From NCBI GenBank assembly GCA_017437755.1, contig JAFRXI010000071.1, positions 62,001 to 126,000 on the forward strand: a DNA stretch of 64,000 nucleotides, given 5' to 3'. Below the pieces are notes generated by a model, which was given only the letters and a program-made list of their open reading frames with translations, made no database searches and had not been told where the DNA came from. The DNA is from Bacteroidales bacterium (GTDB lineage: Bacteria > Bacteroidota > Bacteroidia > Bacteroidales > UBA932). Position 1 is the first letter of the stretch; the number at the start of each line of letters is the position of its first letter. The position numbers and the translations under genes are program-made. Positions 1-5,553 of the stretch are shown here, piece after piece.

Positions 1-2
1 AC

Positions 3-2273
3 CAGGCAGAGGGGCAATACTGGGTGGTCTCCGGCAGCCACTACAACGACGGATGCTGCTTCGATTACGGCAATGCCGAGATAGACAGCAATAACGACGG
101 TGACGGTACAATGGAGGCCGCCTACTTCGGCAATGCCCACAACTGGCACAGGGGTATGGGACCGGGACCGTGGATCCTGACGGACCAGGAAAACCACCTG
201 GCAGGCTGCTCCGAGGACCAGCCCGAAGCGGGATGCGACAATGTCCCTACGGTTCCCTGGCGCTTTGTCACCGCTACGGCTGACGGAGAGCCGCATCGCT
301 GGCGGATGATGGGCGGAGACGCCCGGGATGGCGGTCTGGAGACATATTACGACGGAGTCCGCATAATCAATGACAGGAACAGCTACGACCCCATGCGGAA
401 GCAGGGGGCGATCGTCCTGGGAAACGGCGGGGACAACAGCGTTTCCTCGCAGGGAACCTTCTACGAGGGAGCCATCACAATGGCCGGATTCTTTCCTTCC
501 GAGGAAACCAACCAGGCCGTCCAGGCCAATATAGTGGCCGCCGGATATGATGTCCGGCAGCTTACAATCGCAGGGAGCGCAGACATCGATGAACCCAAGG
601 GCCTCATGACCTTCGCCCCGGGAGAAGAGAAAACAGTTTCCGTAAAGTTCGTCAATACCGGAAAGTCCCTGATAAACGGACTGCGGGTGAAACTGGAACT
701 GCCGCGGGGCTGGAAATGCGCTGAAAAGGCCATTGCGGCAACCCAAACGGTTCTGCCGGGACAGGCCGTGATTACGGGGTTCAAGGTTACTGCCGGTAAG
801 CGGCCGCTCCAGGGGGACATTTCTGCCGAAGCCGTCTGGAGGGGCGGCTCAGTCAGCGCAGCCATGAAGGTAAGGTGCGCTCCCCCGGTCAAAATCAACG
901 AGTTCTGCCTTGACGGCGGGCGCAGGAGCGACAATTCCTATGTGGAATTGTACAACACTGGAGACTCGGAAGTGGATCTGTCGGGCTGGACGCTGGCCAT
1001 GAGACCGGTCCACATGCCGCTGTTTTCGCATGTAGTCCTTCCCGAGGGAACCGTACTCACACAGGGAGAGCACTATGTGATGGGGCTGGCTCCTTCCGGG
1101 CTTTCAGTAAAAGCATCCCGGGGTGACAGCATCCTGTATCTTCGCAGGGCCCAGGGCCTTGTCCCCGGCGATACCGTCATTGTTGGAACTGGGGCCGTCA
1201 GCGAGATCCGCATTGTAAAGAGCGTGCGGACACCGGAAAAGCGGCACCTTCCCACCAGCATCTGGCAACCCCTTCCGGACGGCCCGGTGCTAAGCATTCC
1301 CAAAGGCTCGTCAAACATCCCCGTCACCAATACCCAAGGGTTCCGTCCCGGAGACAGGATGGCCATAGGCTACGGCGCAAAGTATCCTGTGACATCCGGG
1401 GAAACTGAAGATTATGAGGTGGTTACCATTACCGGGACGGGGACTTGCGGCACCCAGGCATACCTGACTTATGACGCCCGGCCAGGGGACACCGTGCTCA
1501 GGGTGAGTTCCGTTGAAAACATCCGTCCCGGGGATGTGATCCGCCTTGACATCGACAGCCGGGGACATGGAATTGAAACCGTAAAGGTAAAGTCCGTAGG
1601 GACAGCGTCCGAGAAGAGACCTTTCTTCGGGCCCATGTCCCCTGAAGAGGCCGGAAGCGGTCTTCAGCTGGAGGAACCTCTGAAATTCGCCCATTCCGCC
1701 AACCTGCCTTTTTCAGTCAGGGGGCAGGGAATATCCTTTGAGCCGGCCACCGCACAAGTACACATTAGCAATGAGCCGGTGCTGGCTCTGGACTGCTACG
1801 TGGTGCTGGAGGAACCGCTGTCGCGCCGGCATCCCATTGACGAGCCGGTTTTTTCAACTAAGCTGAACTTCGGGTTTGACGGCAAAGCCGACCTTTACTA
1901 CGGCGGTCCGGCATTCCCCCTCGGCGGCAGCATGAGGGGACTCGACGGTAAAACCATCCACCGGGGCGGCCCGGGCAGTGCGGCGGCCGGAAGCATAATA
2001 CTGCGAACTCCTGGCGGAGTGGTGGCCGACGCGCTGAATTACGGCCTTATAGTGGATCCCTGGGCTGCAGAAGGCTACCAGGGGGCCTCAGGCAAAGGCG
2101 AGAGGGGCAACTGCGTGGGCCTGTATCCGCCGGAAATGAGCATGGGCCGTCTGCTCCGGATGCCCGGGGTCAGCTATTCCCGCGTTCCCGACGGGTGGGA
2201 CCAGGATGACAACCAGCGGGACTTCCGGATCAGCGTTCCCACCCCGGGTGAGACCAACATCGTCAAAGAGTGA
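3..2273 (+). CDS. GH54 alpha-L-arabinofuranosidase with NEW3-like and split lamin-tail domains (5' end missing)
   Basis: This secreted enzyme should release terminal alpha-L-arabinofuranose from arabinan or arabinoxylan side chains. The frame is open from base 3, so the gene starts before the window. Counting from the GTG at base 24, residues 1-178 match the catalytic half of GH54. They include CCFDYGNAE (vicinal cysteines, bases 54-59), TDQEN with the probable nucleophile Glu56, and GGDN with the probable acid/base Asp137, corresponding to C176-C177, E221 and D297 of Aspergillus AkAbfB. Residues 190-285 look like a NEW3 beta-sandwich. A lamin-tail domain starts at 287 (KINEF..SYVELYN) and appears to finish at 650-745 (DGWDQDDNQRDF, PTPGETN). 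About 290 residues with three PGD-type repeats lie between its halves. The CBM42 usual in fungal GH54 is not seen. Its stop overlaps the next start. The GH54 call is firm; the tail domains are less certain. Confidence 0.88.
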   Translation, partial: QAEGQYWVVSGSHYNDGCCFDYGNAEIDSNNDGDGTMEAAYFGNAHNWHRGMGPGPWILTDQENHLAGCSEDQPEAGCDNVPTVPWRFVTATADGEPHRWRMMGGDARDGGLETYYDGVRIINDRNSYDPMRKQGAIVLGNGGDNSVSSQGTFYEGAITMAGFFPSEETNQAVQANIVAAGYDVRQLTIAGSADIDEPKGLMTFAPGEEKTVSVKFVNTGKSLINGLRVKLELPRGWKCAEKAIAATQTVLPGQAVITGFKVTAGKRPLQGDISAEAVWRGGSVSAAMKVRCAPPVKINEFCLDGGRRSDNSYVELYNTGDSEVDLSGWTLAMRPVHMPLFSHVVLPEGTVLTQGEHYVMGLAPSGLSVKASRGDSILYLRRAQGLVPGDTVIVGTGAVSEIRIVKSVRTPEKRHLPTSIWQPLPDGPVLSIPKGSSNIPVTNTQGFRPGDRMAIGYGAKYPVTSGETEDYEVVTITGTGTCGTQAYLTYDARPGDTVLRVSSVENIRPGDVIRLDIDSRGHGIETVKVKSVGTASEKRPFFGPMSPEEAGSGLQLEEPLKFAHSANLPFSVRGQGISFEPATAQVHISNEPVLALDCYVVLEEPLSRRHPIDEPVFSTKLNFGFDGKADLYYGGPAFPLGGSMRGLDGKTIHRGGPGSAAAGSIILRTPGGVVADALNYGLIVDPWAAEGYQGASGKGERGNCVGLYPPEMSMGRLLRMPGVSYSRVPDGWDQDDNQRDFRISVPTPGETNIVKE

Positions 2274-3850
2274 TGGATGCCGTCAACAAGGTACAAAGGT
2301 TTGCCGCAATGTTGCTTTGCATTGCGGGAGGATGCCTTTGCCTCCTGTTGACACTCAAGGTCCCCGGCTGCTCCTCATGCGGGGATATAACCGTGAGCCA
2401 TTGGTCCATGCTTTTGGGGCGGTTACCGGTCAGTTCGGTGGCCCTTGGTGTCTATGCCGCCCTGCTGATATGCCTTCTAGCCCTCACCGACAGGGAACTG
2501 TCCCCGGTTGCCGGGGCAACTGCGCTGATACTGTCGGGGGCAATAGCCGGAAGCGCCCTGTGGTTCATGGCAGTACAGGCTTGGATCATCGGCAGCTGGT
2601 GCCGCCTCTGCGTTGCCGACCATATTGTTGGATTGCTGGTTTCAGCGCTGACAATCAGAATGATACGTATTAAAATGGTCAGAAAACTGCTTCTTTTCAT
2701 TGTGGGTCTGGGGCTGGCTGCCATCATGGCTGCCGCCCAGTATTCCTCCCGGCCGGTAATCGACAAAGACAGCTACAAAGCCATCTTTGAAGAGTCTCCC
2801 CTGCTTGGTAATCAGGATGCCAGGTACAAGCTGATACTGATTTATGACGAGCAATGTCCCCAGTGTATAAAGGTACGGGGTATGGCAGAAGAAATCGTGA
2901 ATGAGTATCCGGACAGGATGGCTTTCGCATTGTGCCCCAGCACTGCCGTAAAAGGGATCTCAACTGTACCGATGCTGGTTTCACCGGGGAAAGGCATAGT
3001 TCCAGAGGTTAAGGACAGGGAGGAGATGGTCAAGCTGATCGAGCGGGAATTCGGCATGGTGCTTAAGGTCAGCGGGGACTCTCCCGCATACGGCGATGTG
3101 CGCTATGCCCCAAAGCGGAAGGAGTTGCAGGACGAGGGCTCGACCTCGGACCGGCTGCTGGACATATACCTGCCGGATACTCCGAGGCCGGCTCAAGGCT
3201 ACCCTGTGATACTGTATGTTCACGGAGGCGGTTTCCATGAGGGAGACAAGCGGAAGAACCACATCGTCTTTGATCCCCTTGTCAAACTGGGCTATGCCGT
3301 AGTTACTGTCAACTACTATCTCTATGCCTTTGATAATGAAATAAATAAACAGACATGGGGCAGTGAACTTCCCTACTCTCCCCCGGCCGGTGGCCGATAC
3401 GCCGGCACTCTTCAGGCAGCTGTGGATGCTGCCACCGAAGATGCCGTGCTGGCCCTGAAATGGGTGCGGAAGAATGCTTCGGTCTATGGCCTTGACAAGT
3501 CAAGAATCGCCCTGTACGGCGGTTCCGCAGGGGCGATGACCATAATAAACATGGCCTATAACATCAGGCCGCGCAGGCCCCGGATACGGGCCGTGGTAAA
3601 CCTCTGGGGGGCCATTGACGACCCTGCCAGGATCCGCCGCGGAGATCCTCCCATGCTCACCATCCACGGGGACCGTGACGACCTGGTGTCCGTTGATTTC
3701 GCCTATGAGATACAGGAGCGGATGGACCAGCTGGGCATAGGGAAATCCCGGTTCATCCTTATGAAAGGGCGCCGACATGCCCAGTACAAATATGTCTCAA
3801 CTGACCTTATCCCTGAAATAGACTCCTTCCTGAGGGCCTGCCTCTTCTGA
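2273..3850 (+). CDS. VKOR-thioredoxin-alpha/beta hydrolase (esterase) fusion
   Basis: This 525-residue membrane protein combines three activities. Residues 10-155 form a VKOR module with about five membrane helices, a loop pair C33/C36 (CSSC) and the quinone-side pair C110/C113 (CRLC) in the fourth helix. Residues 165-262 are a thioredoxin-like domain with CPQC (C195/C198) and a probable cis-proline at STVP. Residues 275-525 are a carboxylesterase-type hydrolase with HGGG (317-320) as oxyanion hole, nucleophile Ser418 in GGSAG, Asp467 or Asp470 in GDRDD, and His502. VKOR re-oxidises its thioredoxin partner with quinone to make disulfides; the hydrolase could remove acetyl or feruloyl esters. 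Both soluble domains should face the periplasm. The ATG at 2273 shares a TGATG with the GH54 stop, so the two are translationally coupled; a GTG at 2270 is the alternative start. VKOR-Trx fusions are known, but this third domain is unusual. Confidence 0.88.
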   Translation: MDAVNKVQRFAAMLLCIAGGCLCLLLTLKVPGCSSCGDITVSHWSMLLGRLPVSSVALGVYAALLICLLALTDRELSPVAGATALILSGAIAGSALWFMAVQAWIIGSWCRLCVADHIVGLLVSALTIRMIRIKMVRKLLLFIVGLGLAAIMAAAQYSSRPVIDKDSYKAIFEESPLLGNQDARYKLILIYDEQCPQCIKVRGMAEEIVNEYPDRMAFALCPSTAVKGISTVPMLVSPGKGIVPEVKDREEMVKLIEREFGMVLKVSGDSPAYGDVRYAPKRKELQDEGSTSDRLLDIYLPDTPRPAQGYPVILYVHGGGFHEGDKRKNHIVFDPLVKLGYAVVTVNYYLYAFDNEINKQTWGSELPYSPPAGGRYAGTLQAAVDAATEDAVLALKWVRKNASVYGLDKSRIALYGGSAGAMTIINMAYNIRPRRPRIRAVVNLWGAIDDPARIRRGDPPMLTIHGDRDDLVSVDFAYEIQERMDQLGIGKSRFILMKGRRHAQYKYVSTDLIPEIDSFLRACLF

Positions 3851-3867: not shown

Positions 3868-4530
3868 CTATGGCACCAGTTCAAACTTTATGGCGCTGGA
3901 ATGATTGGCCGTGTCATGGAAATAGAACACGGAGCTGTAGTCGCTGGTGGTGTAGTTGGGCAGTGAACTTCACCTTGGCCCCTGCGGGAAGATTCTTCAC
4001 CGGAATGACAAACTCAAACCAGTCGTCCGTCCACAGTCCGCGAAGTGCCGGCGTGGAAATCCCGTTATTTGTGTCGGTTGCGAAAGTGCGAGTAGGACAG
4101 GTTCAATGACATCGTTCTCATCCAACATCACCGTCCCTACATGATGCGTATATACCGGGGACACAGTGTATTTGCTCATGTCAGTTATCCTAAAGGGACT
4201 GTCATAGGCCTTCTGTACCGCTTCCAGAAGGATGGGACGGCTCTCTGAGGTGACCGGGGTGGAATACATGCTCTTATGGGGATAATACTCCTCAAAGCCG
4301 AAAGGGATATCCTCAACCTTGACGCCGGTGATGGGAGTGAACAATGGGGCCTTGACACGACTGAATTAACCACCCCGGACGGTCTTATGGACGAAAGTCC
4401 CTGCACCATCGAGGAGGAAGATGTCCTGAAGGTATGGGGGCCGGGATACAGGGGTATGCCCCGGGATGCCATCCACTCTCCTGCCGGATTCGCAGATCTG
4501 ATAGGATGGAAACAAAAACGGATCAGATAA
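3868..4530 (-). pseudogene. Decayed SusD-associated lipoprotein (C-terminal remnant, several frameshifts)
   Basis: Reading the minus strand gives coherent protein in changing frames. One frame (about 4366 to 4095) reads ITGVKVEDIPFGFEEYYPHK... A second (about 4105 to 3965) reads PALRGLWTDDWFEFVIPVK..AGAKVKF. A third ends SAIKFELVP and stops at TAG 3868-3870. At least two frameshifts, near 4095-4105 and 3960-3970, and an in-frame stop at 4366-4368 interrupt it. No signal peptide is visible, because the fragment begins right behind the TlpA stop. The GLWTDDWFEF..PVKNL.AG segment resembles GVWTGDYFEF..PVK.F.AGT in the two lipoproteins at 19.3-22.8 kb. It was probably a glycan-binding or accessory lipoprotein and the last gene of the SusC-SusD-TlpA operon. 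Sequencing error could mimic this, but several independent lesions make decay more likely. Confidence 0.72.
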
Positions 4531-4533
4531 CCC

Positions 4534-5553
4534 TCACTCCCCCAGATACCGGCCGATGACCACGTCCAGGGAGTCGTGTCTCATTTTGCCGATCATCTTC
4601 CCGTCGGGAGCGATGAGGAAGACAGTGGGAACGGCATGTACGCCATACATCGACGCCACACGCGAAGGCTTGTTCCTGACGGGAGTCTCGTCAATGACGT
4701 GTATCCACGGCGTTGCGTCTTCCTTGACCGCCTGCTTCCACCTCAGGGCATCGCTGTCGATGGAAACGCCCAGTATCTCAAGGCCCTTGCCGTGATAGCG
4801 GCCATAAATCTCCTTCAGATGGGGCATGCTCTCGCGGCAGGGTCGGCACCATGAGGCCCAGAAATCCAGCAGCAGGTATTTGCCCTGGAGTGATTCAAGC
4901 GATACGGGGTTCCCGTCCATGCCGTTCAGGGAAAACACCGGGGCCGGTATGCCGCCCATGGTAGCCTTGCGGGCGGCTATCTCCTCGCGGGCATTCTTTC
5001 CAAGGACGCTCTCCTGCACACGGGAAGTGAACTTGCCAAACCCCTCCTCATACTCCGCCAACGGGGTCTCACGGTTGAAAATGTAATACATGAAGGCAGC
5101 AGCCTCAACGTCGGGATGGGCGGCGAAGCACTCGTTCATTGCCTTTTTCAACTGCATGTGGTAGTCGGAGGCGGAGGTGTCCAGGGAGGCGCTGACCTTG
5201 TCCATGTCCAGCATGAAATCGTTGTTGGGGCCGCCCCTGAACTTGCCGTCCCTGAGGACCAGCCGGGCATTTTCAACATAAAGGAAAGTACGCTGCGGAA
5301 CGGGCCCTCCGTTGAAGACCAGGACCTCTCCCATCCTCACGTCATCCACCTTCCCGGTAAAGACAAAGCGCCCATTGTCAAGCACTGCGGTATCCCGGAC
5401 GCTCTCCCCTTCAGGAATCCATATGTTTAGAACCGCGTAGCCGTCACCGTCACTCTGTCCCTTGATGGTATAGCCTTGGCCGCTGCCGCAGGAGAAAACA
5501 CCCGCGGCAACGGCACAAAGACCGATTAATCCCAGTATCCTGTAGTTGATCAT
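4534..5553 (-). CDS. TlpA-family thiol-disulfide oxidoreductase lipoprotein (DUF4369-like N-terminus)
   Basis: This is a 339-residue lipoprotein with lipobox VFSC at residue 22. The N-terminal about 110 residues fit the DUF4369-type beta domain of Bacteroidota TlpA proteins. The C-terminal half is AhpC/TSA-Redoxin: PAPVFSLNGMDGNPVSLESL, then the active site WASWCRPC, and a cis-proline region HAVPTVF. Such proteins usually reduce periplasmic or envelope disulfides. Its start overlaps the SusD stop by four bases (ATGA), so it belongs to the SusC-SusD operon. TlpA genes behind SusCD pairs are common in this phylum, but their link to the imported nutrient is not settled. The partner that resupplies electrons is not seen here. 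Confidence 0.9.
   Translation of the reverse strand: MINYRILGLIGLCAVAAGVFSCGSGQGYTIKGQSDGDGYAVLNIWIPEGESVRDTAVLDNGRFVFTGKVDDVRMGEVLVFNGGPVPQRTFLYVENARLVLRDGKFRGGPNNDFMLDMDKVSASLDTSASDYHMQLKKAMNECFAAHPDVEAAAFMYYIFNRETPLAEYEEGFGKFTSRVQESVLGKNAREEIAARKATMGGIPAPVFSLNGMDGNPVSLESLQGKYLLLDFWASWCRPCRESMPHLKEIYGRYHGKGLEILGVSIDSDALRWKQAVKEDATPWIHVIDETPVRNKPSRVASMYGVHAVPTVFLIAPDGKMIGKMRHDSLDVVIGRYLGE

Follow-up and report, generated by a model that had tools for sequence, protein, structure and literature searches.

A VKOR-thioredoxin-esterase gene overlapping a GH54 gene in a Bacteroidales genome, and a probable two-gene unit of GH54 and VKOR-DsbA

In a 64,000-nucleotide stretch of a Bacteroidales genome (the window, G000:C41:62001-126000, from an assembly of 2.88 Mb in 76 contigs that is 84.9% complete), a gene of glycoside hydrolase family 54 (GH54) is overlapped by a second gene, whose product joins a homologue of vitamin K epoxide reductase (VKOR), a thioredoxin-like domain and an esterase. 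Why should such a protein be encoded directly behind an arabinofuranosidase, and is it there for that enzyme in particular? The first-pass annotation of this DNA had proposed a dedicated folding catalyst for the arabinofuranosidase that carries a side-chain esterase as well. We find that an oxidase partnered with GH54 is borne out, by comparison only, whereas the part given to the esterase is not. From the sequences compared here, GH54 and VKOR-DsbA are probably a unit of two genes, with the product of the second as oxidase for that of the first, the copy in the window being a derived one.

Linkage of GH54 and VKOR-DsbA genes across genomes

The contigs of 84,980 species were scanned with an alignment of GH54 sequences, and the best 80 of at least 569 relatives were taken as loci; the single fusion protein as query found nothing in these contigs. 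A VKOR-DsbA gene was called adjacent when its frame is on the strand of GH54 and begins no more than 100 bases from where the GH54 frame ends. By this measure 30 of the 80 loci have it directly behind GH54 (in L119 only its first 67 residues are present, at the contig end), a count that is not a frequency for all GH54 genes since the alignment was rich in VKOR-adjacent members and the loci lean to the window type. Sixteen loci have less than 1 kb behind GH54 and could not be judged. The oxidase gene directly behind that of its client, the order looked for in a dedicated-oxidase operon, is therefore what is seen in these loci and, with an overlap, in the window. By record title, which can err and in many cases belongs to a metagenome-assembled genome, the 30 comprise 21 Bacteroidota, five Planctomycetota, three Opitutae/Opitutaceae (Verrucomicrobiota) and one Melioribacter (Ignavibacteriota), with one named planctomycete strain, Aeoliella straminimaris (L098), among them. 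No adjacency was found in those of the 80 loci titled Acidobacteria, Proteobacteria, Gemmatimonadetes, Actinomycetes or groups of these. As the order recurs in 30 loci across phyla, it is not an artefact of one assembly.

The trees of 45 GH54/VKOR pairs agree with r = 0.71, a value reached by none of 2000 permutations. The planctomycete, Opitutae and Melioribacter sequences are mixed with those of Bacteroidota in the GH54 tree, with modest support, and this mixing of phyla hints at horizontal transfer.

The family, order, genus and 80-locus sets overlap in genomes and contigs, and their counts are not additive. Among 199 genomes of the family, VKOR is found in 18 and GH54 in nine, all nine being among the 18. 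In seven of these nine genomes a complete GH54 gene precedes VKOR. In G161 what precedes it is a C-terminal piece of GH54, with which the contig begins, and in G181 the start of GH54 is missing and VKOR runs into the end of the contig. Each of the nine DsbA-fused VKORs in this sample is accompanied by GH54, and 181 of the 199 genomes are without a VKOR match. These two counts argue against the alternative that VKOR-DsbA is the sole envelope disulfide oxidase of its host, serving all exported proteins and standing in the GH54 operon as that of a paying client or through joint acquisition, a reading that we consider rather unlikely. Of the other nine family VKORs, six carry an extra domain at the N-terminus and one, 405 residues long, has an ABC transporter as its neighbour; the remaining two are a gene interrupted by a stop and a partial gene that also contains one. 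In the order, four of 393 genomes gave a GH54 call, and the three full genes, that of the window included, all have VKOR directly behind. VKOR itself occurs in 20 of the 393 (26 places), with no match in 373; of the 23 places beyond the GH54 neighbours six were fetched, five of which fit the extra-domain profile and one (G507:C270) neither profile. The extra-domain proteins make up a second Bacteroidales VKOR class (L044, L046, L047, L054, L056, L057, L166-L169), its additional domain presumably peptidase-C39-like, and no GH54 gene is present in the stretches fetched around them.

In 23 of the 28 VKOR-DsbA neighbourhoods fetched from the genus the gene lies behind GH54 (in L201 behind a C-terminal part with which the contig starts). 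Three have carboxylesterase-like genes as neighbours (L177, L180, L186), one has neither (L178), and one is cut (L193). The first-pass annotation had named, as an observation that would tell against it, homologues never lying next to disulfide-containing hydrolases; the 80 loci, the family and the genus all show the opposite. At three loci (L080, L088, L181) a single VKOR-DsbA gene is flanked by GH54 genes on both sides.

Cysteines of GH54 and other oxidases of its genomes

The GH54 gene begins 534 bases to the left of the window, so that position 24, taken earlier as its start, is wrong. The catalytic domain (PF09206, ArabFuran-catal) is matched in Pfam with E = 7.8e-59 by the part inside the window, which is cut by the left edge, and scores 199.7 bits there and 399.3 bits over the whole gene against a cut-off of 25; a NEW3-type domain and an LTD domain follow, with further repeats in the gene. 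Residues 35-386 match Aspergillus AbfB with E about 1e-100 (6sxt, 341 bits; also 1wd3), and the six catalytic-domain cysteines align with those of AbfB, the adjacent pair included. With the domain above cut-off and the adjacent cysteines of the substrate site kept, the protein is a predicted arabinofuranosidase. The accessible text of PMC12102755, on cis peptides, has the vicinal disulfide of 1wd4 in contact with bound arabinofuranose, and that of PMC8155123 already describes LTD and NEW3-type domains in bacterial GH54 proteins.

The retention of both adjacent cysteines, stated in the first-pass annotation, is confirmed by this alignment and by 98 of 99 GH54 sequences compared, the sole exception being a fragment without the site. 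The further pair that it had noted (GCSEDQPEAGC) is equally real, a fourth pair present in 87 of the 99 aligned rows. Its supposed bearing on the need for oxidation did not hold, for the presence of the pair does not track the VKOR gene: a correspondence seen in ten GH54 proteins failed over the 99 rows, with the pair in 37 of 38 VKOR-adjacent and 34 of 38 non-adjacent rows.

VKOR and DsbB were sought in 50 GH54 genomes, 20 of them from among the 30 adjacent loci and 30 from among the 34 where a VKOR gene would fit behind GH54 but none is present. Each of the 20 adjacent genomes has a VKOR of the frame length of the adjacent gene, 18 have no other VKOR, and the model search found DsbB in none. 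Among the 30 non-adjacent genomes VKOR occurs in 17 and DsbB in seven (one with both), and in one of them, G223, the VKOR turned out to lie behind a second GH54 gene. This distribution is consistent with a unit carried by genomes that lack a general oxidase, phylum and oxidase type being confounded in it. The scarcity of another VKOR or DsbB in the adjacent genomes is also what favours VKOR-DsbA as the general oxidase of its host. A sign of such an oxidase might be an excess of even cysteine numbers in exported proteins; none was seen, even numbers occurring in 32 of 63 proteins from two carriers and in 26 of 57 from two congeners that gave no VKOR match. These counts were made on genome stretches with crude calls of open reading frames and signals, for proteins with one to eight cysteines, and at such low power the measure is noisy. 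Nothing in it points to a general oxidase, and even cysteine counts were dropped as a sign of carriers.

The fusion protein of the window and its surroundings

The first-pass annotation had placed VKOR, thioredoxin and hydrolase motifs in one protein, and they are at the residues it gave, counting from the start codon at 2273, an ATG overlapping the stop of GH54: CSSC 33, CRLC 110, CPQC 195, HGGG 317, Ser418, HGDRDD 465 and His502. The TGATG overlap that it described is likewise present (Table 1). In Pfam the protein matches VKOR (PF07884, E = 3.3e-8) and BD-FAE (E = 1.1e-22; 81 bits, cut-off 26.8), the Ser-Asp-His set of a hydrolase being offered by Ser418, a putative Asp within HGDRDD (465-470) and His502. 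The thioredoxin part falls below the cut-off (Thioredoxin_4, E = 0.15), and its assignment draws on CPQC, the later Val-Pro, alignment with relatives and a structure model in which residues 178-223 form strand-helix-strand with good confidence. A profile of the window protein and its relatives gives E = 2.8e-13 with the solved VKOR-Trx of Synechococcus and 4e-7 with a DsbA-like protein. The model (526 residues, from a GTG; 30 alignment rows; mean pLDDT, the predicted local distance difference test, 62) is good for VKOR and the start of thioredoxin. Its quality drops from residue 265, the esterase being covered by only two rows; it is therefore uninformative on that half and the junction, and the absence of an alpha/beta-hydrolase from both fold lists is not evidence against one.

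Table 1 Coordinates in the window of the two overlapping genes and their features
Feature	Position	Strand	Basis
Predicted GH54 alpha-L-arabinofuranosidase gene (whole gene G000:C41:61466-64273, 935 aa)	1..2273	+	Pfam; AbfB match
Adjacent cysteines Cys197-Cys198 (vicinal disulfide site)	54..59	+	aligned to CC of AbfB
Extra cysteine pair Cys248/Cys257 of GH54	207..236	+	alignment
TGATG stop-start overlap of the GH54 and VKOR-Trx-esterase genes	2271..2275	+	sequence
VKOR-thioredoxin-esterase fusion gene, 525 aa from ATG	2273..3850	+	open reading frame, Pfam, motif positions
VKOR domain; CSSC 2369-2380 (loop cysteines), CRLC 2600-2611 (membrane CxxC)	2273..2674	+	
Fifth membrane segment, joining VKOR to the predicted periplasmic part	2687..2743	+	hydropathy; model helix 136-159
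Shortened thioredoxin/DsbA-like domain; CPQC 2855-2866, Val-Pro residues 232-233	2774..3058	+	alignment, model; below Pfam cut-off
Alpha/beta-hydrolase (BD-FAE) esterase; HGGG 3221-3232, Ser418 3524-3526, HGDRDD 3665-3682, His502 3776-3778	3068..3847	+	Pfam

Membership of the VKOR family is given by PF07884 above cut-off and by the model, which has the VKOR fold. Hydrophobic segments at about 10-28, 53-71, 83-101, 110-136 and 139-157 agree with five long helices in the model, and a Lys/Arg-rich stretch before the fifth suggests that the thioredoxin and esterase parts lie on the periplasmic side. The membrane CxxC (residues 110-113) and the loop cysteines C33 and C36 are present, the latter spaced by two residues instead of five. 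CxHC is found in 59 of 60 relatives and a DsbA helical insert, recognised by motif, in 57 of 60; the window protein lacks both the His, having CPQC, and the insert. In the set compared its redox domain diverges most, and the window forms the longest terminal branch in both the GH54 and the VKOR trees. The missing His might be taken to mean that the thioredoxin part reduces or reshuffles wrong disulfides in GH54, with its eight or nine cysteines and one adjacent pair, and isomerisation is perhaps needed for an adjacent pair among eight cysteines. We regard a reductase or isomerase as very improbable, given CxHC in nearly all relatives and the description, in the accessible text of PMC12453122, of bacterial VKOR as regenerating DsbA with quinone.

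The esterase domain is 38% identical to a stand-alone esterase, and the join lies between the thioredoxin helix, at whose end relatives stop, and the point where the mature form of that esterase begins, its signal peptide (judged by eye) being absent. The fusion is one of a kind so far: the protein was matched in 27 of 350 genus genomes (E up to 1e-20) and end to end only in the window, as also in a search of 151 genus genomes. At none of the other loci fetched does an esterase match fall within the VKOR frame, and a place for the esterase in the arrangement, as first described, is not supported. The single occurrence, the long branches and the three changed redox landmarks (loop spacing, His and insert) would suit a VKOR-Trx gene in decay, whose in-frame join to the esterase, real or an artefact of assembly, does not function as a unit. 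We think this unlikely, as the frame is open, the CxxC pairs and esterase residues are intact, the signal peptide is left out at the join, third-position guanine plus cytosine is similar across the join (0.63 and 0.66), and the gene lies inside a contig of about 210 kb. An origin of the esterase in the neighbouring cluster was not supported, its nearest relatives lying elsewhere (L188, L172, L189). In L189 (6833-9553, minus strand) the relative is the tail of a 906-residue protein, so that this esterase has been joined to another enzyme too; a 29% relative adjoins one GH54-VKOR pair (L197).

Upstream of GH54 on the same strand are a SusD-like gene (assigned by eye), one without a Pfam match, two GH51-like genes (ASD1), a metallophosphoesterase and a GCE_fung-like esterase; on account of these the two genes are the end of a polysaccharide utilisation cluster. 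The tandem GH51-like genes, left of the window (L002:3573-8437, plus strand), are 72% identical over 474 bases, a duplication in the cluster. An 84-codon frame at window 4276-4530 (+), 65% identical over 60 residues to residues 415-474 of the GCE_fung-like esterase, is a fragment of a second copy, and GH54 and the fusion gene are thus flanked by an intact and a partial copy; belonging to another esterase family, the fragment is ruled out as source of the fused esterase. At 4534-5553 (-) a protein with DUF4369 and a TlpA/AhpC-like thioredoxin, possibly a thiol-active neighbour of the oxidase, ends a convergent run of SusD- and SusC-like genes.

A proposed client-dedicated oxidase and its known relatives

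The two-gene proposal builds on gene order, conservation, co-occurrence, motifs, the modelled VKOR fold and the lack of DsbB or a second VKOR in most carriers checked; from these we infer the flow of electrons, the identity of the client, the periplasmic side and the substrate of the esterase. GH54 would be secreted with its cysteines reduced and oxidised at the inner membrane. There the VKOR part would pass electrons to quinone and keep the fused DsbA-like part oxidised, which in turn would insert the GH54 disulfides, the adjacent-cysteine one included. In the window the DsbA part would have lost its helical insert and a secreted carbohydrate esterase would have been appended in frame at the boundary of the domain; one and the same protein in the periplasm could then also remove acetyl or feruloyl groups from arabinose-bearing oligosaccharides, an action on arabinoxylan predicted from the esterase family and the GH54 neighbour.

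Several observations weigh against this proposal. Adjacency is not proof of a client relation, and VKOR is missing behind GH54 in 34 of the 64 loci that could be judged, although the same cysteines are kept. Seven of the 30 non-adjacent genomes have neither VKOR nor DsbB by the models used, and the fourth GH54 of the order (G489, a 79-position match in a 1999-codon frame) is in a genome without VKOR. VKOR-DsbA stands beside one or two carboxylesterase-like genes, not GH54, at five loci (the three from the genus, L159 and L160), and beside neither in L178. The two esterases of L159 are COesterase by Pfam and the others were assigned by resemblance, six of these proteins have 3 to 10 cysteines after residue 30, and in L157/L177 and L159 GH54 is within the same stretch. 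Such loci, which also favour a general oxidase, suggest that secreted esterases are a second, rarer neighbour and another type of client. Cysteines are also present in other exported proteins encoded in the cluster (after residue 30, 12 in GH51-like and six in SusD-like proteins), again as a general oxidase would have it, and the parity test that speaks against such an oxidase is weak, with 68 of 111 non-exported control proteins (61%) even. In the window itself the redox copy deviates at three landmarks and GH54 has 15 cysteines, an odd number, with six outside the catalytic domain, the most among 37 VKOR-adjacent GH54 proteins counted; it is as if the constraint on its cysteines were relaxed. 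On balance the two-gene unit remains the probable reading. We put forward only tentatively its widest form, a client and oxidase moving horizontally between phyla and enabling bacteria without other envelope disulfide machinery to use an arabinofuranosidase that depends on disulfides, with a bifunctional oxidase in the window that matures GH54 and de-esterifies its substrate.

To our knowledge, envelope disulfide formation in gut Bacteroidales has been little studied. Where a gene pair links one oxidase to one client, two proteins suffice to put the question to the test; the pair also suggests a helper for co-expression with bacterial GH54 enzymes, and would mark carbohydrate genes that bring their own folding enzyme. 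We found no literature linking VKOR with GH54 or arabinofuranosidase, or with polysaccharide utilisation and disulfides, in a search that lay outside most subscription journals and all bioRxiv preprints. Judged by their accessible portions, the one paper with both VKOR and arabinofuranosidase concerns the reindeer rumen and is unrelated, a paper on a Streptomyces is the one that brings together vitamin K epoxide reductase, glycoside hydrolase and operon, and the main text of a VKOR phylogeny (PMC4555120) makes no mention of fusion, fused, Bacteroid-, hydrolase or esterase.

The closest precedent is assT-dsbL-dsbI of uropathogenic E. coli and Salmonella, likewise with one secreted enzyme and a dedicated oxidase pair per operon (PMC3526765, accessible text). 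Its client is an arylsulfate sulfotransferase, whereas the client proposed here is a glycoside hydrolase; its DsbA and DsbB are separate proteins, whereas here VKOR replaces DsbB and is fused to the DsbA part; and the carriers of GH54-VKOR are Bacteroidota, Planctomycetota, Verrucomicrobiota and Ignavibacteriota. A client-dedicated oxidase as such is therefore known, and what is new is one based on VKOR, for a glycoside hydrolase and across phyla, together with the esterase fusion. Fusions of VKOR with thioredoxin or DsbA are known from Synechococcus (PDB 3kp9/4nv5/4nv6) and Clostridium sp., the clostridial protein rescuing E. coli that lacks dsbA and dsbB (PMC12453122), and in the portions of the literature examined a client gene is named for none of them; the window copy differs in its C-x2-C, its shortened thioredoxin part and its C-terminal esterase. 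The Bacteroidales VKOR-Trx proteins with the extra N-terminal domain share the fusion, the family and the order, but follow another profile and are without GH54 in the neighbourhoods fetched. Finally, AbfB (PDB 1wd3/1wd4) shares with the GH54 proteins the catalytic domain and the six cysteines with their adjacent pair, to which most of the bacterial proteins compared here add the fourth pair and NEW3/LTD domains, where AbfB carries CBM42 (PMC8155123, accessible text).

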